Made by a program: the position numbers and the translations under genes
From: a virus
Strand: one strand, 5' to 3'
Length of the DNA: 29,884 nt
Virus record (IMG/VR): IMGVR_UViG_3300000117_000153
Location: 1-29,884 of that record
Shown: piece by piece, positions 4,856 through 20,127 of the stretch
Layout of the letters: each line of letters opens with the position of its first letter
How positions within the stretch are numbered: position 1 is the stretch's first letter
Notes under the pieces: generated by a model
The model's database searches: none
Told to the model about the DNA's origin: nothing
The model's input: the letters and a program-made list of their open reading frames with translations, nothing else

Positions 4856-6207
4856 GTGTGTCTATACTATTGAAAGCAGATATTCGCGGTCATAAAGAGC
4901 CTACGGCTAAAACTGCTTTTGTATTAGACCAAATTAAAAAAACATTTTCTCCTAAAGTAAAAGATTTATTGTCTAGTAAAGTTCCTGATAACTTCGTTAA
5001 CAATTTGGAAAATGTAGTTAGAGTTACTGATGGTAATTGGAAAGATAGGCTTCGAGAATCTTTATCTGATGACTTGATGACTGCTTCAGGTGGATATAAT
5101 AGATTAGGTTCACAAAATTTTAGAGATTCAGGAGAACCTGTAAGAGAACCTAAGATAGATATGAGTAAAATATTTGTAGCCATTACAGCACATCGTAAAG
5201 TGTTTAAACAAATTCTAAAAATTAAACAAGATAATGCTACTATGTTTTTATTAGCGGGTATGTCTGATGATATGCGTTCAGAAGAAAATCAACAACAATT
5301 AGATAATTTTGTAGAAAATTTAGAAGAAGGTTCAGATGAAAAGGCTATCTATGATGCGTTTGTAGTCGATGAAAATATATTCAGTAAATTAGAAACTGCT
5401 ATATCTACGCTCGATAAGTTAGAAGACCAACTATCTAGAAAAGAAAGAAGGTCTTCTAGTGATTATTCTTTTATCTCCACATTAACTAATTTACTTAATA
5501 GATATGGTAAAGACTCTAGAATGGAAAATTATAGAGGTGAATTGGATACATTACAAAGTGAGTCTAGACTATTTTCTCAAGAAAATGTATTTAAATTTCT
5601 AGATAAATATGAACAAGGTAGACACCCTGTTAGATTGTTAGAAGTATTAAATGATGAGTATTCTGGTAAAACAGGAATAGAATTGTTGAAAGAAATATTT
5701 ACTAAGAAAGGATTTAAATTAGAACAAATAAAAGTTGGAGATACAAAACGATTAAGAGGGTTTATAGATTTAAATTATAGAAAAGTAGCAACAGATATTA
5801 AACAAGCAATGAATCCTGATGCTACTAAATCACAGGTAAAAATATTTACTGAAATGAAAGAGTCTAAGATTATTGATTATGCTGATGCAATAGAAATAAG
5901 ACTTGGTGATTTATTAGATGATGAAGAGGCTAAAGAATCCTATTACTTGGCTGAACCTGACCCTATGTTTGATGAAAAGGGATTACCTGAAGATGTTAGT
6001 ATAGGTGTAGCAGATATAAAAGATGAGGATTATCGTATGGAATTAAAAAGAACTACTGAATTATATGCATTTATGTATTATTTAGCAGAATTAAGGGAAA
6101 TCTCTTTAGATAAGTCGTTCTTACGAAATGATGCACATACTGTTGAAGTTGAGTCTTTACCTGAAAAGTTTGCTATATTAAGAGAAGTCATGGGTGATTT
6201 AGAATGA
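4849..6207 (+). CDS. Hypothetical protein in the head cluster (452 residues)
   Basis: A soluble, charged, mostly helical protein without recognisable motifs, signal peptide or membrane segment. It could start at GTG 4849, overlapping the previous stop, or at GTG 4858 right after it; no good ribosome-binding site separates them, so translational coupling is likely. It ends with an ATGA overlap with the next gene. Its place between portal and prohead protease fits a minor capsid or ejected internal protein, but nothing in the sequence proves this. Confidence 0.75.
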   Translation: MVSVSILLKADIRGHKEPTAKTAFVLDQIKKTFSPKVKDLLSSKVPDNFVNNLENVVRVTDGNWKDRLRESLSDDLMTASGGYNRLGSQNFRDSGEPVREPKIDMSKIFVAITAHRKVFKQILKIKQDNATMFLLAGMSDDMRSEENQQQLDNFVENLEEGSDEKAIYDAFVVDENIFSKLETAISTLDKLEDQLSRKERRSSSDYSFISTLTNLLNRYGKDSRMENYRGELDTLQSESRLFSQENVFKFLDKYEQGRHPVRLLEVLNDEYSGKTGIELLKEIFTKKGFKLEQIKVGDTKRLRGFIDLNYRKVATDIKQAMNPDATKSQVKIFTEMKESKIIDYADAIEIRLGDLLDDEEAKESYYLAEPDPMFDEKGLPEDVSIGVADIKDEDYRMELKRTTELYAFMYYLAELREISLDKSFLRNDAHTVEVESLPEKFAILREVMGDLE

Positions 6208-6452
6208 GTTGGGAAGATATAATTAAATTTAAGTATTATCCTTATCCTGAAGATGAAGATGCAGAGTTTAATAGAGTTAAAGTAAAAAGGGAAGGAAACA
6301 AAAAAGGAACACCAAAATCTGCATCTGTTGATATGCCAAAAAGAAAAATAAAAGACAGAAAGGATTTAGAAAAGATAGCAAGGGAATTAGATAAAGCCGT
6401 TGAAATGCACACATCTCAGGCAAAAAGAATTAGAGAAATTATAGGTGATTAA
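6204..6452 (+). CDS. Small basic protein beginning MSWEDII, unknown
   Basis: 82 residues. The start ATGA overlaps the previous stop, and an upstream GGTGAT supports it. The N-terminus MSWEDIIKF carries a short Trp motif seen in variant form in several neighbours. The middle is Lys-rich (REGNKKGTPKS); the last 40 residues form a probable amphipathic helix (KDLEKIARELDKAVEMHTSQ). No family recognised. It may bind DNA or a head component. Confidence 0.7.
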   Translation: MSWEDIIKFKYYPYPEDEDAEFNRVKVKREGNKKGTPKSASVDMPKRKIKDRKDLEKIARELDKAVEMHTSQAKRIREIIGD

Positions 6453-7103: not shown

Positions 7104-7331
7104 ATGAGTGAAGAAAATGAAATGCTTATGCTAATGAAAGAGTTAGTTGATAAAGTGAAAGCACTAGAAGATACAGTATATAGACAAGATAATTTATTAA
7201 TGAAATCAGGATTTGTAGTTTCTACATCTCCTAAACCTGCTATGGTAAATGGTGCTGCTCCTTCAAGTGATATAATATCTAAAATGAATTGGGATGATAT
7301 TCACAAAATTGTGGAAAGAATTGAGGGGTGA
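7104..7331 (+). CDS. Small coiled-coil protein sharing a C-terminal motif with the scaffold
   Basis: 75 residues, starting directly after the previous stop and preceded by GGAGG. Residues 1-30 are a probable coiled coil (MLMLMKELVDKVKALEDTVY), residues 35-55 a Ser/Pro/Ala linker, and the end is SKMNWDDIHKIVERIEG. The protease-scaffold fusion encoded at 10681-11868 ends in the closely similar SSMSWGDIHNLARKF after a similar coiled coil and linker. Scaffolding proteins usually bind the capsid protein through their C-termini, so this small protein may be a second coat-binding or mini-scaffold protein; that is inference. Confidence 0.72.
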   Translation: MSEENEMLMLMKELVDKVKALEDTVYRQDNLLMKSGFVVSTSPKPAMVNGAAPSSDIISKMNWDDIHKIVERIEG

Positions 7332-8095: not shown

Positions 8096-10648
8096 ATGTC
8101 AATTTCAGGTATAGTATTTGAAAAGAAAAAAGATGTGCTAACAAAGCGCGTATTAGATTTTTTTGAGCGAACTAGATTTTCATATTTATCTGCATTAGAA
8201 GACCCAAAAGAATACAGTAAAAAATGGAAAAAAACTGTAAAGTCTATACGGACTCAATTTGATTCTTTAGATGCTTTTACAGGATTATTGAAAAAACATT
8301 TAGATGAAGATATTTTATTTGATGAAAGGACAGAAGATGTAACTTCTACACAAGCAAAAAAATTATATGATGCTGTTAAATCATTGAGATTTGAATCTAA
8401 AGAAATAAGTGACCCGTTTGCAGAACAGTTAGGTGATAATGTAGTAGATACATTGTTATCTAATGATAGTGTATATGCTGCATTTATACATTATGCATTA
8501 AGAGCGCACAATGTTCCATTGCCTTCTGAAGCGTGGGAAAAACATGGTCTTCTTCCTGATGAAATTACTCAGGGTGCTATGGGATTAGATTTAGAATCTA
8601 AAGATATTCCATTATATATTTCTGAACACTATGGTGAAAATAAAGATACTAAGAGAATTAAAACTAAGTTTAGTAGTATGTTGTCTCTGTTAAAGAAAGT
8701 ATTTTTAGAAGAATATACTAATGTACAATGGAATAAGTTAGTTGATATTAATATAAAAAAATCTGATGATACTAAATCAGAAGAAGAAAAAGCAGATATT
8801 AATTTTATAATTCCAAATAAGCCTATGTATAGAATATTTGAATTAAATGATATGGAACAATTAAAAGGTTTTAGTGGTGAATATGTTGTTCAAGAAAAAT
8901 ATGACGGAATGAGGGTTCAATTACATAAGATAGATGGTAAGATAAAAATATATTCTTATAATCAAAAAGATATTACTGATAAATGCCCTGAGCAAGTAGA
9001 ACAATTAAATAAAAAGCAATTTGGAGATTGTATATTAGACGGAGAATTAATGTTATTTAGAGGTGAAGAACCTTTACATAGAGCATCAGTAATTAATTAT
9101 ATGTTCAAGAAACCCGTAGATGGATTAAAACTTAGACTCCATGTATTCGACATAATGAGACATGAAGAAAGAGATTTAATGGATGAACCATTGAGAGAAA
9201 GAATTAATATTTTAATGTATCAATATTCACAACATTCCTCAGAAGATTTGGCATTCCCATCTAAAAAAGATACTAGGATAGCAGATTCTATCAAAGAAGT
9301 AGGCACTTATTCTGAAACTATAATGCAACTACCTGCGTCAGAAGGTGTAGTGATTAAAGATATAGAATCTACTTATCAGATAGGTAGTAGAAAAAATCCT
9401 AAATGGGTTAAGTGGAAAAAGTTTGTTGATTTAGATGTTGTAGTATTAGATTCTAAAAAGACTAAGAGTGATTTATATTCTTATACTATTGGTATTGGGC
9501 CTGTAACCGCAGAACAATCAAGAAAATACAAAACTACGGAATTAAAAGATAAAGCATATATTCCTGTTGGGAAAGCGTTGAATACAAAAGAATCTGTTGA
9601 GGTTGGTGAAATAGTTAGGGTAAAGGTTGATGAAGTAAAGAAAACTAAAGAAGGATTTAGTTTGTATTCTGCTAAAGTAATTGAAATACCTGAAGTTACT
9701 GAATCTGATAAATTAGCAACTTTAGAATTATTATCTGATAAAACTAAAAAATCTATTTGGGAAGATTTAGATAAGCCATTTAAGTATAGATTGAAAGGTG
9801 TCAAAAAGATGTATATTACTGATGATATACATGGTGAAGCAGAAATATTATTGAAAAATGATTTCGATGGATTTACTATTATGGGTTTTAGTGGTGACAC
9901 ATTGATGGAGAAAAAGGCGTTGTATGATATTGATGTTTGGAAAGAAGATTTGAAAGCAGCCATAAAAAGTATGCGTTCTGAGTTGAGGTTATCAATAAAG
10001 AATAAATTATTAGAAATGGATGAGCCAGTTACTTTTGAACAAATAGTAGAGTTTGTTAAAGAACATCATATGGATAAGTTTGAAAGCACTGCTTTTAATT
10101 CAGATTTGAAAAGATTAAAGAAATGGTTAATTAGACAAGAAGATATTGTGTATAATAAAACAGAAGATAATTTTGTGGCTAATAATGATACAATAGAAAA
10201 ACAACCAAAAAAAAATCCTAAAGAAGCAAACTTTGTAATTCAAAGAAGAGGAGATAATAATTTAGATTTTATTATTGAAACATCAGAAAAAAGTATGGCT
10301 TGGTTATTTGATATAGAAACAACTTCGGATGTTTATAACTTATTTGGTAAGTCTGGTAAGTTTCCTGCTAAAATAAGTTTATCGGGTATTAAAGAAGGTA
10401 AAGTGATTGATAGTGGTAAATTAATACTAGGAGTACAAAAGGATGGTTATCATGAGTATAAATTAGAAGGTGATAAGTTTGATACTAGATTACACGTTAG
10501 GGTCGTACCTTTAGATGGTAAAGATACTTGGGTTACATGGACTGGTAAAAAACAAACTATGTTAGATACTAAAGAAGATGAAGGAGTATGGGATATTACA
10601 CTTGACAGGTATAAAAAATTAGACTTACCTGAATCTGAAACCGCTTAG
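8096..10648 (+). CDS. Large ATP-dependent DNA ligase with non-standard N- and C-terminal domains
   Basis: 850 residues, well above the roughly 550-600 of archaeal ligases. The nucleotidyltransferase core is clear: motif I EKYDGMR with the adenylated Lys at about 268, ILDGELMLF (about 313-321), motif III region LHVFDIM (about 348-354), motif IV EGVVIKD (about 416-422), and motif V KWVKWK (about 436-441). An OB-fold follows to about residue 533. Residues 1-240 do not show a standard DNA-binding domain I recognise. Residues about 540-700 are unknown. Residues about 712-835 (FVIQRRGDNNLDFIIE, then YHEYKLEGDKFDTRLHV) weakly resemble the 3'-phosphoesterase domain of LigD but lack its catalytic His. 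It seals nicks; its position among head genes instead of replication genes is odd. Confidence 0.88.
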   Translation: MSISGIVFEKKKDVLTKRVLDFFERTRFSYLSALEDPKEYSKKWKKTVKSIRTQFDSLDAFTGLLKKHLDEDILFDERTEDVTSTQAKKLYDAVKSLRFESKEISDPFAEQLGDNVVDTLLSNDSVYAAFIHYALRAHNVPLPSEAWEKHGLLPDEITQGAMGLDLESKDIPLYISEHYGENKDTKRIKTKFSSMLSLLKKVFLEEYTNVQWNKLVDINIKKSDDTKSEEEKADINFIIPNKPMYRIFELNDMEQLKGFSGEYVVQEKYDGMRVQLHKIDGKIKIYSYNQKDITDKCPEQVEQLNKKQFGDCILDGELMLFRGEEPLHRASVINYMFKKPVDGLKLRLHVFDIMRHEERDLMDEPLRERINILMYQYSQHSSEDLAFPSKKDTRIADSIKEVGTYSETIMQLPASEGVVIKDIESTYQIGSRKNPKWVKWKKFVDLDVVVLDSKKTKSDLYSYTIGIGPVTAEQSRKYKTTELKDKAYIPVGKALNTKESVEVGEIVRVKVDEVKKTKEGFSLYSAKVIEIPEVTESDKLATLELLSDKTKKSIWEDLDKPFKYRLKGVKKMYITDDIHGEAEILLKNDFDGFTIMGFSGDTLMEKKALYDIDVWKEDLKAAIKSMRSELRLSIKNKLLEMDEPVTFEQIVEFVKEHHMDKFESTAFNSDLKRLKKWLIRQEDIVYNKTEDNFVANNDTIEKQPKKNPKEANFVIQRRGDNNLDFIIETSEKSMAWLFDIETTSDVYNLFGKSGKFPAKISLSGIKEGKVIDSGKLILGVQKDGYHEYKLEGDKFDTRLHVRVVPLDGKDTWVTWTGKKQTMLDTKEDEGVWDITLDRYKKLDLPESETA

Positions 10649-10680
10649 TTAATATAGTCGTTGAAAAAAACATATTGCTA

Positions 10681-11868
10681 ATGCTGTCTGCCCCAATGCG
10701 TCTTGTTAATCAAGATGCACGTGATTTTAGTATTCTAAAGTCAGATGATTTAATTATTGGTGGTTATGCTTCAATAGAAATGATAGATAAACAAAATGAT
10801 TTGATTACTATTAAGGCATTAGAAGAGGCTGTTGATGGCTTTATGGTTAATAAAAAATTTAGAAATGTAATGTCTAACCATTCTAATGTGCAAGTAGGAG
10901 AAGTAATTGATTCTTATAGAGATAAAAATGGTTTAGTGCATAAGACTCACGTAGATGACGTTGGATTTTATGTTGTTATTAAATTAAGAGATGATATTGA
11001 AAAAGCAAAAGAAATATCTAGAAATATTAGAAAAGGAACATTGCGTTCTTTTAGCATAGGAGGTCAGGCTATTTCTAAAAGAAGCCGTAAATCAAATGAT
11101 TTAGGTGAATATAATGAAATAGATGGTCTTGAATTACACGAAGTCACAATTTGCGAAAAAGGAATTAATCCTGAAGCCAAGTTTGATATATTAAAGGAAG
11201 AAAAAGGTGAAAAAAATATGACTGAAAAGTTAGAAAAAGCCCTTGAGGAGTTGAATGACTTGATGAAACAAGTTAATTCTCTCAATAAGGAAGAAGAAAC
11301 GATGGAAGCCCCAATGGAAGAAGACATGGAGTACATGGCTACTGAAGACGGGAAAGATGAGATGGAAATGACTCTTGATGATGAAGAAGCAAAAGCATTA
11401 GATGACCAAGACTTAGTACATATAGAAGCAGGTGAAGAAGTAGTAGTAAATGGTAACCCAACTGCAACTCCTGCACCTCTAAAAGTATCTAAAGAATGGG
11501 ATGCATCAGAATTTAAATCACTAGATTTATCTGCTGAAAATGTTGAAAAGGCTTATGAACAATTCAAAGCAGAGCAATTAGAAAAGATTGCTTATGAAAA
11601 CCTATCAAAACAATTTGAAACAAGATTTGTTTCAGAACAGGCTGTAAGAAAGTCTGCTAATGAGAGAGCAGAATATGATGCTCGTACCGAAGTAGCAGCA
11701 TTAAAAGAAGAGTTTGCTGTACTACGCAAATCATTATCTGCTAAAGATACTGAAATCGCAAAAGCAAAAGAAATTTCGTTTGGATTACCTGAAGGTTTCC
11801 CTGCAACATCAGAAGAGTTATCTTCTATGAGTTGGGGAGATATTCATAATCTAGCGAGGAAGTTTTAG
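10681..11868 (+). CDS. Prohead maturation protease fused to scaffold
   Basis: About 395 residues. The first 170 residues match the serine prohead protease fold: NHSNVQVGEVID with the candidate catalytic His, RSFSIGG with the Ser about 58 residues later, and LELHEVTICEKGINPEA, the beta-strand block typical of the family. The rest is acidic and helical (MTEKLEKALEEL onward) like a scaffolding delta domain, ending SSMSWGDIHNLARKF. It should drive procapsid assembly and then cleave itself and head proteins. The start is uncertain: ATG 10681, TTG 10675 or ATG 10696; none has a strong ribosome-binding site, unlike other genes here. It sits directly before the major capsid gene. Confidence 0.85.
   Translation: MLSAPMRLVNQDARDFSILKSDDLIIGGYASIEMIDKQNDLITIKALEEAVDGFMVNKKFRNVMSNHSNVQVGEVIDSYRDKNGLVHKTHVDDVGFYVVIKLRDDIEKAKEISRNIRKGTLRSFSIGGQAISKRSRKSNDLGEYNEIDGLELHEVTICEKGINPEAKFDILKEEKGEKNMTEKLEKALEELNDLMKQVNSLNKEEETMEAPMEEDMEYMATEDGKDEMEMTLDDEEAKALDDQDLVHIEAGEEVVVNGNPTATPAPLKVSKEWDASEFKSLDLSAENVEKAYEQFKAEQLEKIAYENLSKQFETRFVSEQAVRKSANERAEYDARTEVAALKEEFAVLRKSLSAKDTEIAKAKEISFGLPEGFPATSEELSSMSWGDIHNLARKF
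11218..11868 (+). CDS. Putative nested scaffold protein (internal in-frame start)
   Basis: ATG 11218 is in frame inside the protease-scaffold gene and is preceded by GGTGA seven bases upstream, a site as good as those of the main genes. Translation from here would give a 216-residue protein starting MTEKLEKALEELND, exactly where the protease domain ends and the helical scaffold begins. This matches the lambda C/Nu3 arrangement, in which free scaffold is made in excess of protease. That it is used here is inferred from the site and the domain boundary. Confidence 0.5.
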   Translation: MTEKLEKALEELNDLMKQVNSLNKEEETMEAPMEEDMEYMATEDGKDEMEMTLDDEEAKALDDQDLVHIEAGEEVVVNGNPTATPAPLKVSKEWDASEFKSLDLSAENVEKAYEQFKAEQLEKIAYENLSKQFETRFVSEQAVRKSANERAEYDARTEVAALKEEFAVLRKSLSAKDTEIAKAKEISFGLPEGFPATSEELSSMSWGDIHNLARKF

Positions 11869-11880
11869 GAGTGAGAAAAG

Positions 11881-13257
11881 ATGAGTGGATACACAAACAC
11901 AATTAAAGATTTAGAAGCCGCAACCTATGGATTAACTGGCCCTGCCGGAAATGCTCTATTAAAGAGTTCAGGTGTTGTCGGTGGATTCGGAACGCCCCAT
12001 GACGCTGCATCAAACCCGTTTAGTGCAGCAAGTGGATTGGGAGATTTATACAATGTTCTTTACGGACAAAAAGTATGGTCAATGCTAAACCAAGAGGTTA
12101 ACCCTCTTTCAATTCTAGCAAAAAGACCTTACACATCATCAGGATGGAGAGTTCTAAAGAGCCGACCTACTGGTGGTAGTGGTTCTGCATTTGGAACAGG
12201 AACAACTGCTGTTGCTGCAAACACTGCTGATTTATCTACACCTAGAGTAGACCAAATTGGTGGAGTAGAAGAAAATGCAACATTAGACGGTGCAAATGGG
12301 TTTAGACCACTTTCACCTGAATACGCTAAATTATTCGTAAGTCCAAAAACTGTTGCTCATTTGTTTGAGTTCTCAGAACTTGGTATGGAATTGGCTGCTA
12401 TTGATGATGGTGTCGGAGACATTCGTGCAATCGTTAGAGAAGATATGGGTAAGCATCATGCAGAAACACAAAGCAAAATGCTAGTTATGCCATACGAATC
12501 ATATGATGATGGTACAGCAACAAACATTGAAAGAAACTATACTTCTTTGATGAAGATTGTTTCTTCTGCGGGTGAAATTGCTGCTATGTATAATGCTAAC
12601 TTATTGACTACTGGCGCAAACAATGGAGATAACTCCGCAGTTGTTGCAGATGTAGTTAATCTGTTTGGTACAACAAGAAGTGTTACTATTAGTAGTAATG
12701 CTGCAACAGGTGTTGCTTCTTTCTTGGATGCAGAGGTTGACTTTGGAGATGGATATGCAGCAGGTGATGCTAGAGTTCTAACTCTCACTATGATTAATAG
12801 TATGATTAGAAGAATCCGTCAAAATGGTGGAAACCCAAAATGTATTCTAACAGGATACGATACTATTCAGCACATTGCTGACTTACTACAAAGCCAAGAA
12901 AGATTTATGGATAGGAAAGAGATTGTTCCTACACATAATGGTGTAAAAGGTGCAAAGGGTCAAGAAGTTGGATTTAGAGTAGCAACATACTTTGATATCC
13001 CTCTAATCCCTGCAAAGGATATGCCTTCAACTGGTAGTAACTCAACAAATGAACTGAGTGATATGCTGTTCCTAGATACAGACCATATGTGGCTATCTGT
13101 TATGAAACCAACTCAATACTTTGAGGATGGAATTACTAACGGAAACCCATTCGGTGTCGGTAAACTTGGAAACCAAGGAATGTACAGAACAATGGGTGAA
13201 ACTTGCTGTTCTTTCTTCAAGGGTCAAGGTAAGATTACTAACATTAAGAGTGCTTAG
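11881..13257 (+). CDS. Major capsid protein, HK97-type
   Basis: 458 residues. It follows the protease-scaffold gene by 12 bases, the standard place. The N-terminal 60 residues are Gly/Ala/Ser-rich, followed by YGQKVWSMLNQEVNPLSIL and RPYTSSGWRVLKSRP, then a long alpha/beta body; the C-terminal part (MWLSVMKPTQYFEDG and GMYRTMGETCCSFF) looks like the final beta strands. Codon choice is more uniform and less A-rich than in neighbours, with many preferred C-ending codons such as AAC and TTC, consistent with high expression. The start follows GGAGTGAG. The HK97 fold is inferred from context and general pattern, not from a diagnostic motif. Confidence 0.85.
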   Translation: MSGYTNTIKDLEAATYGLTGPAGNALLKSSGVVGGFGTPHDAASNPFSAASGLGDLYNVLYGQKVWSMLNQEVNPLSILAKRPYTSSGWRVLKSRPTGGSGSAFGTGTTAVAANTADLSTPRVDQIGGVEENATLDGANGFRPLSPEYAKLFVSPKTVAHLFEFSELGMELAAIDDGVGDIRAIVREDMGKHHAETQSKMLVMPYESYDDGTATNIERNYTSLMKIVSSAGEIAAMYNANLLTTGANNGDNSAVVADVVNLFGTTRSVTISSNAATGVASFLDAEVDFGDGYAAGDARVLTLTMINSMIRRIRQNGGNPKCILTGYDTIQHIADLLQSQERFMDRKEIVPTHNGVKGAKGQEVGFRVATYFDIPLIPAKDMPSTGSNSTNELSDMLFLDTDHMWLSVMKPTQYFEDGITNGNPFGVGKLGNQGMYRTMGETCCSFFKGQGKITNIKSA

Positions 13258-14484: not shown

Positions 14485-14904
14485 ATGCCAAGTTTAGAAG
14501 ATGATACAAGATTAGTAATGACGATTTTATTTGTTGGCGCAGTAAGTGGCGTTAATATTTATTTTTATACCCAATATGGATTTATGTTTCCATATGCAGG
14601 TTATACCCATGCACTATTGTTTGGGATATTAACCATAGGAGGTATAATGATACTGAAAGCAATATTCGATTTAACTTTATTTGATAGAATAGAAGATGTT
14701 TTATTGCAAAGAAAGATAGATGCATATTGGGCTAGAAAACAGAAAGAAGAAGAAAATCGAAAGAGAGTTAGAGATACAATGCGTCAATATGACCAAACTT
14801 ACGGAAATAACTTCATACAAAATCCCGTACCTGCATTTGGTCAAGCATATCAGCAACCTGTTGATAATACCATAAGCCCTACATTCTTGACTATGAATGA
14901 GTGA
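14485..14904 (+). CDS. Membrane protein with two transmembrane helices
   Basis: 139 residues, start seven bases after GGTGA. Two hydrophobic segments span about residues 10-31 (VMTILFVGAVSGVNIYFYTQ) and 38-62 (YAGYTHALLFGILTIGGIMI). A basic, charged cytoplasmic-type helix follows (about 68-105; RKIDAYWARKQKEEENRKRV), then a Gln/Pro/Asn-rich tail. Membrane proteins are unusual inside a head-to-tail structural block. It overlaps the next gene, also a membrane protein, which is followed by the small GTPase, so the three probably act together. Confidence 0.75.
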   Translation: MPSLEDDTRLVMTILFVGAVSGVNIYFYTQYGFMFPYAGYTHALLFGILTIGGIMILKAIFDLTLFDRIEDVLLQRKIDAYWARKQKEEENRKRVRDTMRQYDQTYGNNFIQNPVPAFGQAYQQPVDNTISPTFLTMNE

Positions 14905-15134
14905 GGTATATGGTTTCTGAATTATTAATGGGATTCGATGAATCCACATTAGCATATGATTTACAAAGAGCGCACTCTGCTGATATATGGTTTTTAAGAA
15001 CTAGATTTTTTATTTGGTCAACTGCCGCATGTATTGCTAGTTTTTTTGTAGGACATGCTTTGCCTTTTTGGGGAATTAATCTTTATAATTCTACTTGGAC
15101 TGCAATCGTTAATTGGTGGCATCATCTGTGGTGA
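14901..15134 (+). CDS. Small Trp-rich single-span membrane protein
   Basis: 77 residues from GTG 14901 (overlapping the previous stop) or 74 from ATG 14910; the GAGGT before the ATG is very close, so the start is unsettled. The N-terminal half is soluble (DESTLAYDLQRAHSADIW), the segment FFIWSTAACIASFFVGHALP is a likely membrane span, and the tail is rich in aromatics (WTAIVNWWHHLW), suggesting interfacial contact with the membrane. Its stop lies inside the ribosome-binding site of the GTPase gene, so the two are translationally coupled. Confidence 0.72.
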   Translation: MRYMVSELLMGFDESTLAYDLQRAHSADIWFLRTRFFIWSTAACIASFFVGHALPFWGINLYNSTWTAIVNWWHHLW

Positions 15135-15140
15135 TTAATT

Positions 15141-15812
15141 ATGTCAGTAATGGCGGGGTTTGTTATATTAGTAGCAGAAGGTGTAGCAAAGATGTGGAAC
15201 AGAATGCATTCTATTCCTTTTGGTGTCTATGGTGCAACAAAGGTAGGAAAAACCACATTACATCATCAATTAAGAACGAGAGGTGAAGTACCGGAAATTA
15301 AGAAAAGAACTGTTGGTCGTGAAACGGCAAGTAGGAAATATGTTAAATTAGATGGGGATGCACATACAGTTAAAACAGCAGATGTAGGAGGAGAAACAGT
15401 ATTTTGGTCTGAATGGATTGGGGATATGAAAACTAGAAAGGTTAAGTATATCATATTCATGATTGATGACAGACATATGGATAAGCATTATGATATTGAG
15501 CAGCAGTTGTGTTGGACTTTTTTAGTTGATACAATATGTTCTCCTTATTGGGATGCTATAAATAAAAAGGGTAGAAAAAAATCTCATGATTATCCAATAG
15601 CAGTAGGTATATGGGCTAACAAATATGATTTATGGAAAAGCAAATACCCACATGAAGGAGAAATTAAAGACCATCCAATATTTGAGACTTTTAAAAGTGG
15701 AATGACAAAATTAAATGAGAAAGGAATACCATGCTTCAAATATATAGTAAGTGCAAAATCAGATTCAGAAATGGTATATCGTGGCGTATTAACAATGATT
15801 AAAGATTATTAG
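15141..15812 (+). CDS. Arf/Ras-like small GTPase
   Basis: 223 residues, start five bases after GGTGAT. All five G-motifs can be read: G1 GATKVGKTT (31-39), G2 Thr in KRTVGRET (about 57), G3 DVGGE (81-85), G4 NKYD (160-163) and G5 SAK (204-206). The strand IIFMIDDRH between G3 and G4 matches the place of the IFVVDSND block of Arf proteins, and DVGGE corresponds to Arf DVGGQ with the catalytic Gln replaced by Glu. The N-terminal 20 residues (MSVMAGFVILVAEGVAKMWN) are hydrophobic or amphipathic, like the membrane-anchoring helix of Arf. It follows two membrane-protein genes. Arf-like, SRP-receptor-beta-like or another TRAFAC-class GTPase are the options. Its role in a virus is unknown. Confidence 0.8.
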   Translation: MSVMAGFVILVAEGVAKMWNRMHSIPFGVYGATKVGKTTLHHQLRTRGEVPEIKKRTVGRETASRKYVKLDGDAHTVKTADVGGETVFWSEWIGDMKTRKVKYIIFMIDDRHMDKHYDIEQQLCWTFLVDTICSPYWDAINKKGRKKSHDYPIAVGIWANKYDLWKSKYPHEGEIKDHPIFETFKSGMTKLNEKGIPCFKYIVSAKSDSEMVYRGVLTMIKDY

Positions 15813-15820
15813 GTGATTAA

Positions 15821-15922
15821 ATGAAAAGAAAAGAAAACAGATATTATACAACACTAAATTGTTCTATGAGTGAATTTTGTAATTGTATTGAATGTAAAGA
15901 AATGGATGGGATTGAACAATGA
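15821..15922 (+). CDS. 33-residue Cys-rich peptide
   Basis: The start ATG follows GGTGAT with the standard three-base spacing, and the stop overlaps the next ATG by four bases, so it fits the operon as a real gene despite its size. The peptide carries four cysteines: Cys14 and then FCNCIEC, enough for one metal site. Charged N-terminus MKRKENRYY. Function unknown; it could be a zinc-binding partner of the downstream protein. Confidence 0.6.
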   Translation: MKRKENRYYTTLNCSMSEFCNCIECKEMDGIEQ

Positions 15923-16596
15923 GTATGAATTATCAGCCTCCTAGTTTAATTGGTTCTACTAACGCATATGTTGAAGCCAATCCATTTTTACCTCCCAAAG
16001 AAATGGCTCGCGCACCGGGTTCTATAATGAAATATGAATTTAAAAGTAACAAGCCAAAAAAACAATTAAAAGAAATTATTGCTATTCTCAAACCTGAGAA
16101 AAAAACATTTTTAAAAATCCCATATAAGTTTGCATTTAATGTAAAAGATAGGTGTGTAGTATGTGGTACACAAAAGCGTTGGAATGCTTCTGATGCAACT
16201 AGACCACCGATACCTTTACATAAAGTTAGGAAGGGCTACCCAATGAGAGGTACTTATTGTGATAAGCATTCTCATATGCATAGGCAATATGAAATGTTAG
16301 AACAACAGATGCTTGCGGAGGAACATGGATTATCATTTAGTGCTTATGTACCTAGTATGAAATCACTAAATCCAATTGCAAGTGGGCCATTAACTACTTT
16401 GAAACAACAGGACATACAAAACTTATCAGCATTAGGATGGACTATAAAACCCCCACAAATGAATACAGAAACAAGAGAGGAAGAATTGTTTAGATTAATT
16501 GTAGAAAATAATGCACATAATGAAAGAGTTAAAAAATTATTAATAGAAGGAACACAAATACAAGAAAATAAGGAGGAAGACGAATGGGGTGGCTAG
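15919..16596 (+). CDS. Zinc-finger-like protein, unknown
   Basis: 225 residues. The ATGA overlap couples it to the Cys-rich peptide. A probable zinc site lies at about residues 79-120: CVVC, then YCDKHSHMH some 30 residues later, giving Cys4 or Cys3His ligands. The N-terminus is Pro-rich (NPFLPPKEMARAPG); the C-terminal 60 residues are helical and acidic (LIVENNAHNERVKKLLIE). No family recognised. It sits between the GTPase and a low-complexity protein. Confidence 0.7.
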   Translation: MSMNYQPPSLIGSTNAYVEANPFLPPKEMARAPGSIMKYEFKSNKPKKQLKEIIAILKPEKKTFLKIPYKFAFNVKDRCVVCGTQKRWNASDATRPPIPLHKVRKGYPMRGTYCDKHSHMHRQYEMLEQQMLAEEHGLSFSAYVPSMKSLNPIASGPLTTLKQQDIQNLSALGWTIKPPQMNTETREEELFRLIVENNAHNERVKKLLIEGTQIQENKEEDEWGG

Positions 16597-17297
16597 GTAC
16601 AAGTAATGGGTCGTTATCGAATCAGATAACACAAAACCAACAAACGCAATTTAAGTCAATGAATAATTTATTGACACTACAAGAAAATCATGTAGAAGAG
16701 TTCTTCTATTATCATGGTGAAGCATTTTTAACAGCATTTGAAAAATTGTTAGAAGATGTTACCCAAAGAGTATTAGGACAAATGCTACCACAATTAAAAT
16801 TTATTCAAGGTGCAGGTGGAGATTTAGAAGTACATCCTGATTCATTGAGAGAATATGAATCTATTACTGCTGAAAATATTACATTAGATTTGCAGAATAT
16901 TCTAGGTGCTGCACTTAATACCGAAGTTATTATGCAAAGAAAGATGGCAAAAGAACAATATTTAGAGTCTCAAGGATTTGCATCTAGTTCAGGTTCAATG
17001 GCACAAGGTAGTCCTCAAGGTATGAATCCTGCAATGGGTAATCCTCAAGGTATGAATCCTGCAAATATACATGGCGCACCTGCAATGGGTGGAATGAATC
17101 AACAAGTAATGCAACAACAAATGGCTATGAACAATGGTAGTGGTTATCCTATACCACCATCAGGTTATGACCAGTTTAATAATCCATATTGGATTGACCC
17201 ACAAACAGGTCAACCAACATATACACCACCTCAAAGTGGATTGGGGATAGCACAGGGAATTGGTAAAGCAGTTGCTTGGGCTAAATGGTTGGCGTAA
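16584..17297 (+). CDS. Protein with helical N-terminus and Gln/Met/Asn/Pro-rich C-terminus
   Basis: 237 residues; start nine bases after GGAGG, overlapping the previous gene by 13 bases. Residues 1-140 are helical (VEEFFYYHGEAFLTAFEKLL). Residues 140-225 are low-complexity with repeats of PQGMNPA and Gln-Met runs, including a direct DNA repeat at 17012-17064. The end is a short hydrophobic segment (IAQGIGKAVAWAKWLA), possibly membrane-interacting. It begins MGWLG, loosely like the MSW/MGW starts elsewhere. Function unknown; a virion or membrane-tethered linker is conceivable. Confidence 0.7.
   Translation: MGWLGTSNGSLSNQITQNQQTQFKSMNNLLTLQENHVEEFFYYHGEAFLTAFEKLLEDVTQRVLGQMLPQLKFIQGAGGDLEVHPDSLREYESITAENITLDLQNILGAALNTEVIMQRKMAKEQYLESQGFASSSGSMAQGSPQGMNPAMGNPQGMNPANIHGAPAMGGMNQQVMQQQMAMNNGSGYPIPPSGYDQFNNPYWIDPQTGQPTYTPPQSGLGIAQGIGKAVAWAKWLA
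17012..17064 (+). repeat. Two 23-bp direct repeats within a coding region
   Basis: The 23-base unit starting TCCTCAAGGTATGAATCCTG occurs at 17012-17034 and again at 17042-17064, 30 bases apart and in frame, encoding PQGMNPA twice. It looks like a recent tandem duplication in a low-complexity protein tail. Confidence 0.85.
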
Positions 17298-17310: not shown

Positions 17311-19041
17311 ATGGCAGAAGCAGAACGAATATTTGTTGAAGATGATAATAGCCCGACTCAATCAGACATTATATTAGAACCTACATATTTAACGTATGGT
17401 CATGTTAGGCTTATGGAAAATGTAAAATTATATGAGCATTTAGTTACTTATATTTTTCATGAAATACAGCCTAATAATCCTAGAATGAATAATCTAGATG
17501 ACCTTGTTTATGATGCATTAAATAAAAAAAAGTTTGATAATTTAGATATTAATAGTTCAGAAATTGATTTAAGTAATGAAAATAGACCATATTATTCTCA
17601 TGAATCATATGGAATGTATATGGATAGGTTTCTAACTGTAATACAACAACAAAATTTAATATCTTTGATTAATGATTTAAAGAAAAGAAATCTTTTAAAT
17701 GAATCAACTATTTTTAGTGATATTACTAAAAAAAGAATGGATGATATTAAATTTAAAGTAAAAGATTTAGAGAATAAAGCCAAAGTAGATAGAGTTATCA
17801 ACTATACTTTAGAAGTAGAAGGTAGTGATAATAGTACATTAGATGCATTTCTTTCAGGAAAACCTATGTTGAGTTCTAATCTAAGTGACTATGTTAATAG
17901 TGGTAATAGCGGTATTATATTTGATTCTGAAAAATACATAGAAAAAATGTTAAAAGATGCAAAGATAATGGATAGAAAAGGCAATTTAAAGTCAGGTAAA
18001 AGAAAATCATTTAAGAGAACAGTAAAGGTAAAAGTAGGTACTATATTTGATGCTAAAAATATACAAGAAAGAGGCATTCGGGATTCTAAAAAAGTTACAG
18101 GAAAATCAGGTATTATTTACGCAATGCGTGTAGAAGTTAATGAAGATGGTGATGATGAATATATTTTCTACGGTTTAGGAGAAGATAAAAGTTTTACAGA
18201 TTTTGCAGAAGCAAAGTCATATTTTGAATCTTTTACTATGGAAGATATATCTTTAGATTTAAATAAACCTGTAACTAATCCTATAAAAGATGCAATCATG
18301 AGTTTTGTTCAGCCTGAAAATGGTAAATTAAAAACAGGTAGTTTAGATATTACATATAAAAAGATGAAATTAAATAAATCTGATATAGCAGCAATAACTG
18401 GTGATTATAGTAGTGGTGAAGCAAAAGATACTGCTAAAGATTTGGTAGAGGCATCTAGAGATAGAAAAAAAGTATTAGAAGCAGAAAAATCAATTAGAGA
18501 TAAAGCAAATGCTTCTGTATCAATTGATGAACAAAATAGATTAGTTATTGAGTCCGATGAGGGAGATGAAGATGTTACTGATATAAGTTCTGAAAGAGAT
18601 ATTTTAGAAGATATTGTAGAAACATATGGGGCAAGTTTTGTTGATGCTGCTATAAATAAAGAACCTCAAGAATTTTTAGCATGGTATAATACACCTAGAC
18701 AAAAAAGAATTGTATCAGCAAGAAGAGAAGATGGGACAAATGCTCTTGGAACAAAAGAAATTACAGATGCAGGTAGATTAAAAATAACTAGTAATGTATT
18801 TCCTGTAATAAAGATAGATGAAATAGCAAAAGAATATTTAAGTGAGTATAATTTTAATGTTAATAAAACATTTTTATCTCCTGAACGTAGGGGTAAAAGA
18901 ATGACAGAACGTGGTGGGTCAAAAACAATATCATCAGAAAAAGATGGTTCAACGGGGGACTACCAATTGAAAGATGTAGGAACAATTAATAGACTAAAGG
19001 CGACATACAGAAGTTTAGAACGGATGGTGGATAGGTTTTGA
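17311..19041 (+). CDS. Large hypothetical structural-region protein (576 residues)
   Basis: Start three bases after GGTGAG. Soluble, charged, with mixed helices and strands and no motif I recognise. Residues about 225-320 hold a beta-rich stretch (RTVKVKVGTIFDAKNI, then GIIYAMRVEVNEDG); residues about 385-440 are charged and helical; the C-terminus is basic and probably flexible (ERRGKRMTERGGSKT). It lies 15 bases before the head-tail connector. A neck or minor head protein is possible; nothing confirms it. Confidence 0.72.
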   Translation: MAEAERIFVEDDNSPTQSDIILEPTYLTYGHVRLMENVKLYEHLVTYIFHEIQPNNPRMNNLDDLVYDALNKKKFDNLDINSSEIDLSNENRPYYSHESYGMYMDRFLTVIQQQNLISLINDLKKRNLLNESTIFSDITKKRMDDIKFKVKDLENKAKVDRVINYTLEVEGSDNSTLDAFLSGKPMLSSNLSDYVNSGNSGIIFDSEKYIEKMLKDAKIMDRKGNLKSGKRKSFKRTVKVKVGTIFDAKNIQERGIRDSKKVTGKSGIIYAMRVEVNEDGDDEYIFYGLGEDKSFTDFAEAKSYFESFTMEDISLDLNKPVTNPIKDAIMSFVQPENGKLKTGSLDITYKKMKLNKSDIAAITGDYSSGEAKDTAKDLVEASRDRKKVLEAEKSIRDKANASVSIDEQNRLVIESDEGDEDVTDISSERDILEDIVETYGASFVDAAINKEPQEFLAWYNTPRQKRIVSARREDGTNALGTKEITDAGRLKITSNVFPVIKIDEIAKEYLSEYNFNVNKTFLSPERRGKRMTERGGSKTISSEKDGSTGDYQLKDVGTINRLKATYRSLERMVDRF

Positions 19042-19056
19042 TTTGGGGTGAATTAA

Positions 19057-20127
19057 ATGAGTAAAGCATCATCACCAAGTGATTTCACCAATATTGATGT
19101 GAATTATAATATAGGTTTTGGGTATTATACAACACATACTGATATTTCTAACTTATTACAAATTAGTGCGTTTACGGATGGTACGACTCCTACAAGAGCA
19201 GAAGTAGGTAAAATAATTAAAAGAGTTGAAGATAAGATAGATGATAAAGTAGGTCATCCTTTTAGACCAATAATATACAGAGATGAAGTACATAATTTTG
19301 AGTTCTTTAGACATGCTCAGTATCCGATACAACCATACAAAGACTATGTGGGTTTTATACAATTAGAAAGACCTAAAATAATGAAAATAGTTAGATTAGA
19401 AGTTTGGCAAGGTAATAGTTATGTTGATTTGGCTTCTGCTACTGCTTCTTATTCTCCACCTGCAACAGGTTCAGGATATAATTTAACATTAGGAGTAGGT
19501 AATTTTTCATTTGTATTAACAGAAGGTGTTCATTTCTTTGGTTCATTTGGTAAAAAGACTACTGCTAGTCAAGTAGCAGATGCAATTAATGAAGTATTTC
19601 CACAACAAACTGCACAATTTACAGGTGAGACTGCGGCTAAATCTAAAACTGCTACTAGTGGTGGATTAACTAGAAACATATCTGATTTCTTTTATGCATC
19701 TACTGATACAGAAGACAGCAGTAAAGTGATTATATCTTCCCTTTTACCGGGGGATGATGGTTCAGATTGTACTATAACTGCTAGTGCAGGTTCTAAAACA
19801 AACTTTACAGACAATCAAGACCAAAGACGATTAGGTGATTATTGGACTATTAACAGTGAGGGTAAAATATTCTTTTTGAAAAATTATCCTTATGTTCAAA
19901 ATCATTCTTGTAGAATAACTTATGTTAGTGGAGATAGAAGAGTACCCGGAGTTATACATGATGCCGCAACTAAATTGGTTGCTGCTGAAATAATAAGACA
20001 TGATGATAATTCAATATTAATTGCTGAAACAGGTTCTAATATTGACTTAAAAACTAAGCATGATATATTAGTAAAAGAAGCAATGGAAACTCTAGATGGT
20101 AAGAAAATAGTAATTTATAGTTTGTGA
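19057..20127 (+). CDS. Probable head-tail connector with a central insert
   Basis: 356 residues; GGGGTGA precedes the start. The ends resemble gp6/gp15-type head-tail connectors: DISNLLQISAFTDG with EVGKIIKRVEDKIDDKVGHP at the N-terminus and a helical C-terminus (VIHDAATKLVAAEIIRHDD). The middle 150 residues form an insert with strands and the pattern KTTASQVADAINEVFPQQ followed by SSKVIISSLLPGDDGSDCTI, which recalls the IN-motif fold of flagellar hook-type proteins. Standard connectors are near 100 residues, so the insert is the odd part. Position between the head block and tail terminator supports the call. Confidence 0.6.
   Translation: MSKASSPSDFTNIDVNYNIGFGYYTTHTDISNLLQISAFTDGTTPTRAEVGKIIKRVEDKIDDKVGHPFRPIIYRDEVHNFEFFRHAQYPIQPYKDYVGFIQLERPKIMKIVRLEVWQGNSYVDLASATASYSPPATGSGYNLTLGVGNFSFVLTEGVHFFGSFGKKTTASQVADAINEVFPQQTAQFTGETAAKSKTATSGGLTRNISDFFYASTDTEDSSKVIISSLLPGDDGSDCTITASAGSKTNFTDNQDQRRLGDYWTINSEGKIFFLKNYPYVQNHSCRITYVSGDRRVPGVIHDAATKLVAAEIIRHDDNSILIAETGSNIDLKTKHDILVKEAMETLDGKKIVIYSL

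Follow-up and report, generated by a model that had tools for sequence, protein, structure and literature searches.

The window examined here, the whole of the analysed DNA at 29,884 bases, is an IMG/VR virus record that carries genes for a terminase, a portal, a DNA ligase, a prohead protease/scaffold, a major capsid protein (MCP), a GTPase and tail proteins, the main genes all sharing one strand. Between the MCP gene and a large ORF that precedes the neck gene lies a five-gene cassette in the order TM1-TM2-GTPase-Zn225-Q237 (14485-17297), and the region contains the following features:

11881-13257, plus strand: MCP, HK97-like (SU10_MCP; Pfam 6.9e-8, PHROG 6.9e-22), the upstream anchor of the cassette.
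14485-14904, plus strand: TM1, a membrane protein of 139 aa with hydrophobic segments at about residues 9-27 and 42-64 (hydropathy 2.26 at residue 43) and a polar C-terminal tail.
14901-15134, plus strand: TM2, 77 aa, with one hydrophobic segment (hydropathy 1.64) and a conserved LAYDLQRAHSADIWFLRARF.
15141-15812, plus strand: predicted small GTPase (Ras superfamily), 223 aa, ATG to TAG, with a hydrophobic/amphipathic N-terminal helix.
15821-15922, plus strand: optional Cys-containing ORF, 33 aa, with a CxC..C pattern, the Shine-Dalgarno sequence AGGTGAT and an ATGA overlap with Zn225.
15919-16596, plus strand: Zn225, 225 aa, with CxxC...CxKH and a basic KPKKQLKE segment.
16584-17297, plus strand: Q237, 237 aa, with a conserved NNLLTLQENHVEEFF in its N-terminal part, a Q/G/P/N-rich low-complexity middle and a conserved C-terminal GLG...KxxAWAKWLA.
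17311-19041: large neck-side ORF, 576 aa in the window virus.
19057-20127, plus strand: neck356, a positional neck/adaptor gene and the downstream anchor (hmmsearch and MCP-to-neck distances), present in the cassette-less sister clade too.

The window virus is a magrovirus (Magrovirales). Its MCP is about 25% identical to the capsid proteins of Druskaviridae, and its longer relatives, which reach 99 kb, have the MCP in common in 12 of 12 cases tested. One relative of 95.6 kb (G012), with a GTPase 99% identical to that of the window, carries on the opposite strand a PolB split over two ORFs, an ERCC4 nuclease, an RFC-like AAA protein, a TFB-type zinc ribbon and a second DNA ligase. This arrangement matches the published magrovirus layout (order Magrovirales, family Aoguangviridae; PMC10768690, PMC10160649) and thereby identifies the virus, as do the Druskaviridae-related MCP, a size of 90-100 kb, a GC content of about 32%, the split PolB, the ERCC4 nuclease and a ligase beside the prohead protease, the last of which is described for a group A magrovirus (PMC7318539). 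The presumed host, taken from the literature on the group, is Poseidoniales (MGII) (PMC10768690, PMC10160649, PMC7318539), and the family comprises abundant, widespread ocean viruses whose hosts are probably archaea. A chaperonin, a candidate host marker, is present in two of nine long contigs. We also observed two distinct ATP-dependent DNA ligases, one in the structural block (window 8096-10648, 850 aa) and one in the replication block (L338 538-2187).

The GTPase ORF has an archaeal-type Shine-Dalgarno sequence, GGTGAT, directly 5′ of its start, and its pairwise dN/dS against relatives is approximately 0.04-0.10, which indicates that it is a functional gene under purifying selection and no chance reading frame. 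It is the best-conserved gene of the block, with a median identity of 77% vs 74% for the MCP. Its motifs lie at residues 31-39 (G1, GATKVGKTT), 81-85 (G3, DVGGE), 160-163 (G4, NKYD) and 204-206 (G5, SAK), with the strand IIFMIDDRH at 104-112 and a conserved Thr57, within RTVG, at the place of G2. A search for the same gene in related viral contigs returned 161 full-length relatives, and in all 161 the patterns GxxxxGK[ST], DxxG, NKxD and SA[KL], required in that order, are intact. The motifs named in the first-pass annotation, G3 and G4 included, are therefore kept across the family. The hydrophobic N terminus that it described is likewise conserved and forms a helix (residues 2-22) ahead of the first strand in the AlphaFold model; the segment is short and contains no clear transmembrane helix, with a maximum 19-residue hydropathy of 1.5 in the window protein.

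At the catalytic position of the G3 motif, relatives carry either Glu (132 of 161) or Gln (29 of 161) after an invariant DxGG, and at least two changes between these residues fall on the GTPase tree. The Q61E variant of Ras still hydrolyses GTP and is no dead mutant. Given this activity and the natural variation, the slow or altered hydrolysis earlier proposed from the Gln-to-Glu change cannot be read from the residue; the Glu of DVGGE is, to judge from the relatives, one of two natural states, with no signature of a defect.

The AlphaFold (AF2) model of the GTPase is of modest quality (pLDDT 64.8, pTM 0.67), the switch regions (residues 33-88) being modelled with low confidence, and its order of elements, b1-P loop-a1-b2-b3-a2-b4-a3-b5-a4-b6-a5, is that of a six-stranded G-domain. 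Foldseek returned 670 matches in the PDB at E<=0.001, the best being Rab33 (E 3e-6); among the 50 matches listed, all are Rab/Ras GTPases or G-alpha, with Rab, Ras and G-alpha ranked first. The TM-scores are modest (0.35-0.6), owing to the poor modelling of these regions. Profile matches of the single protein are weak but consistently to GTPases (small_GTP 3e-5, SRPRB 4e-4, MMR_HSR1 5e-4, Roc 8e-4), all of them under the curated cut-off, and the Pfam search of the window protein gave no family above its cut-off. Across 44 diverse relatives, TIGR00231 small_GTP matches 43. From the motifs and the fold match, we predict with high confidence that the product is a Ras-superfamily small GTPase. An unrelated P-loop protein, such as a nucleotide kinase or an AAA-type protein that resembles a GTPase only superficially, could account for stray weak matches to a Sak4-like PHROG (6e-4, in 5 of 44), a kinase model (4 of 44) and AAA_24 (2). 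Such a protein is not what the conserved DxGG, NKxD and SAK of 161 of 161 relatives, the small_GTP matches and the small GTPases or G-alpha listed by Foldseek describe; we reject this candidate on the conserved G3, G4 and G5 and the fold matches, and consider its chance very slight.

The Arf type first assigned to this protein is not established. Over the 44 relatives, MMR_HSR1, Roc, SRPRB and Arf compete as the best family, and the Arf profile matches nine members (best 3.8e-5) and is not the top family overall. A PDB profile search placed Ras first at E ~0.03, and hhalign gave a probability of 90% for HRas vs 14% for Arf1, both reference sequences having been entered by hand. The Arf-like features are single motifs only (GKTT, DxGG and ANKxDL), and neither profile nor pairwise scores support Arf membership. 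MglA was also considered as the closest subfamily and rejected, as the P-loop alone aligns. We treat the protein as a separate, divergent family within the Ras superfamily.

We found no relative of the GTPase by tblastn against 50,697 annotated phage records and no convincing family in a PHROG search, and the named small GTPases among the structures listed from BFVD all come from giant viruses of eukaryotes. The statement that small GTPases are not standard in tailed viruses is thus borne out by the annotated-virus collections searched, which contain no tailed-virus relative. A scan of genome contigs with virus-specific patterns matched only two, L093 and L094 (NZMJ01000101.1 and NZMJ01000024.1), which are labelled as a Maricaulis MAG; their magrovirus structural genes, in virus gene order, mark them almost certainly as misbinned DNA of viral origin. 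Maricaulis was accordingly dropped as a cellular donor, in a scan whose virus-specific patterns distant cellular relatives could escape. The literature searched held no link between magroviruses and a GTPase; the discovery paper of Philosof et al. 2017, whose supplement may name the gene, lies outside that search. Small GTPases in giant viruses are already known, and what is new is a five-gene cassette with a small GTPase in the magrovirus structural block.

The cassette is inherited in an all-or-none manner. Wherever a GTPase locus extends far enough upstream, TM1, TM2 and the MCP accompany it (150 of 150 loci), TM1 and TM2 being the two adjacent membrane-protein genes pointed out at the outset; wherever it extends far enough downstream, so do Zn225 and Q237 (142 of 142). 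The gene order is fixed and the spacing mostly tight, with overlapping or close genes on the same strand; TM2, read from a GTG at 14901, overlaps TM1 by 4 nt and has an alternative ATG start at 14910. We counted loci with profiles of the cassette genes and an MCP-based search independent of the GTPase. Among 230 MCP loci with enough sequence, 186 hold all five genes, 44 hold none and no locus is partial. Near-identical contigs are part of these counts, as are some contigs reached via the GTPase. This pattern argues that the five genes are a cooperating unit, and we regard a single functional unit as very probable. The 33-aa ORF at 15821-15922 is judged to be outside the core cassette because the median gap between GTPase and Zn225 is 17 nt, which leaves no room for it in most relatives.

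The two downstream cassette proteins have little resemblance to known families. Zn225 has four invariant residues (C79, C82, C114 and H117), and its CxxC...CxKH is a probable zinc site; it gave no Pfam match and no significant fold match. A likeness of Zn225 to ArfGAP or ArvC was considered and set aside, as its AF2 model is poor (pTM 0.47) and without a fold match, and only the CxxC...CxKH pattern remains. Q237 has no match in the Pfam or PHROG searches, and no GEF, GAP or effector was recognised by sequence or fold.

On an MCP tree from which close copies were removed (69 with the cassette, 21 without), possession of the cassette is a single change (SH-aLRT 93), on a tree made by a quick method and with long branches among the far outgroups. 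One gain on the stem would be the simplest reading, with loss as the alternative. The cassette-less sister clade (L224, L255-L273), which includes a 94-kb contig, has the protease, MCP, small head genes and neck gene in the same order, but one long ORF (977 aa in L224, about 980-1020 aa in the clade) takes the place of the cassette and the 576-aa ORF. The MCP-to-neck distance is 4.2 kb in this clade (n=19) vs 5.8 kb in the cassette clade (n=167). These arrangements suggest that the cassette came in as a single block, either by insertion or by an exchange that also took in part of the long ORF. HCTV-1, of the Druskaviridae, has no orthologue of the GTPase. Because the flanking head and neck genes persist in the sister clade, the cassette is dispensable for the shared head-neck module and lies outside the core capsid machinery. 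The role in virion assembly once suggested for the GTPase is weakened accordingly, since the same module is built without it.

In one clade (L095, L160, L098, L162, L222 and others), accessory ORFs are inserted at the TM2/GTPase and GTPase/Zn225 junctions, and many of these bear an N-terminal peptide of the type M-W-x-x-I-L-K. The same start, M(0-2)W-x-x-[ILV]-[ILV]-K, is found on about 142 distinct ORFs of about 69 otherwise unrelated families at many loci, for example at window 6204-6452 (variants at 6445 and 6783) and at 16444, 19441 and 3001 of L336. All 164 of 164 occurrences are on the structural-gene strand, and control searches gave 0 for the reversed motif, 2 with Y for W and 7 with F for W. 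By eye, some of the peptide-bearing proteins resemble acetyltransferases, nucleotidyltransferases and metalloproteases, as packaged cargo might. The prohead protease/scaffold (window 10675-11868) has the C terminus SSMSWGDIHNLARKF, with a [S/D]Wx[D/E]I-like end in 100 of 101 relatives, and a second small protein (window 7104-7331) has the same kind of end (SKMNWDDIHKIVERIEG); this C-terminal motif has 264 distinct occurrences vs 4 for its reverse. The N-terminal peptide may be a packaging signal. It resembles the MSWxDI motif at the protease/scaffold C terminus, and our guess from this resemblance is that cargo may mimic the capsid-binding end of the scaffold.

The best overall explanation of the locus, to which we give an even chance, is that magroviruses have a membrane GTPase module of five genes that serves as a late switch at the host membrane. 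This proposal derives from the all-or-none inheritance and its single change on the MCP tree, the fixed gene order, the intact G motifs and GTPase fold, the purifying selection, the two membrane proteins, the N-terminal helix, the cassette-less sister clade and the precedent of ArvA, and action of the GTPase at the host membrane is a plausible proposal that we lean slightly towards. The N-terminal helix, together with TM1 and TM2, would hold the GTPase at the infected archaeon's cytoplasmic membrane, where its GTP state would recruit or organise Q237 and Zn225 would act as a regulator (GAP- or GEF-like) or an effector. The GTPase cycle could then remodel or weaken the membrane late in infection, leading to release of virions or vesicles. 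We advance only tentatively, at less than even chance, the broader view that tailed archaeal viruses evolved their own dedicated five-protein small-GTPase machine. A large magrovirus clade would have acquired it a single time, at its base, and it would reshape or open the archaeal membrane, a functional parallel to Arf/ArvA vesiculation. Egress or membrane remodelling in particular is the likeliest of the roles considered, though we hold it at well below an even chance.

The position of the cassette among late structural genes fits a part in the virion equally well. The five proteins might be carried in the particle, for example at a vertex or inside the head, and act at entry, where host GTP would let the GTPase open the membrane or pass through it following injection. 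The location between MCP and neck genes, on the same strand and with overlapping or close genes, suits such a component, as does a GTPase better conserved than the MCP, but the sister clade and the Druskaviridae relatives make head and neck without the cassette, so it is not core morphogenesis, and the Pfam and PHROG searches gave no match to a structural-protein family; we judge this reading rather unlikely. An assembly factor, or chaperone, for the clade's large neck-side protein (17311-19041) would explain why the ORF adjacent to the cassette also differs by clade (576 aa vs about 980-1020 aa), yet it leaves two conserved membrane proteins unexplained, and few relatives have a recognisable large ORF whereas the cassette is conserved. 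We hold little hope for it.

A complex for superinfection exclusion or anti-defence at the host membrane, in which the GTPase would be the sensor or switch, would bring membrane proteins and a regulatory GTPase together and would agree with the single clade-specific change on the MCP tree and with the accessory genes inserted between cassette genes in some genomes. Such modules are, however, usually gained, lost and mosaic, and this one is kept by 186 of 186 loci of the sampled clade, which points to something more basic; we rate exclusion as improbable. The cassette is a self-contained, strictly conserved and small set of proteins that could be expressed in a model archaeon, with the cassette-less sister clade as a natural control. 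We know of no described mechanism for the entry and exit of marine-archaeal tailed viruses, and membrane-controlling small GTPases have a central place in the debate on how eukaryotic trafficking arose.

The window virus and its relatives share with the described magroviruses (Aoguangviridae) the kind of MCP, the genome size, the split PolB, the ERCC4 nuclease, RFC, TFB and the ligases; the published group descriptions searched make no mention of a GTPase. The Ras/Rab/Ran GTPases of giant viruses (Pithovirus, Klosneuvirus, Tupanvirus and others) are likewise virus-encoded and of the same fold (BFVD best E 2e-5), but they are Rab/Ran-like, belong to viruses of eukaryotes and have neither the five-gene cassette nor a tailed-virus context. 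With Arf and SRP-receptor beta, the viral protein shares the GKTT P-loop, the DxGG G3, the ANKxDL G4 and a helix before the first strand, whereas it falls under the Pfam cut-offs and, with the references entered by hand, aligns less well with Arf1 than with HRas. The closest parallel in kind is ArvA of Haloferax volcanii (HVO_3014), an archaeal small GTPase that drives vesicle release and budding and whose operon includes a Zn-ribbon protein, proposed to be a GAP, the loss of which raises vesiculation (PMC10927574). As in the viral set, ArvA has an N-terminal membrane-interacting helix and a zinc protein in its operon (PMC10927574); the viral set differs in its upstream membrane genes, and its neighbours have no Pfam match to ArvB (DUF2073) or ArvC (DUF2072) at E<=1. 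By analogy, the viral cassette may work in the manner of the vesiculating GTPases ArvA and Arf, a parallel that we draw in function and not in membership of either family.
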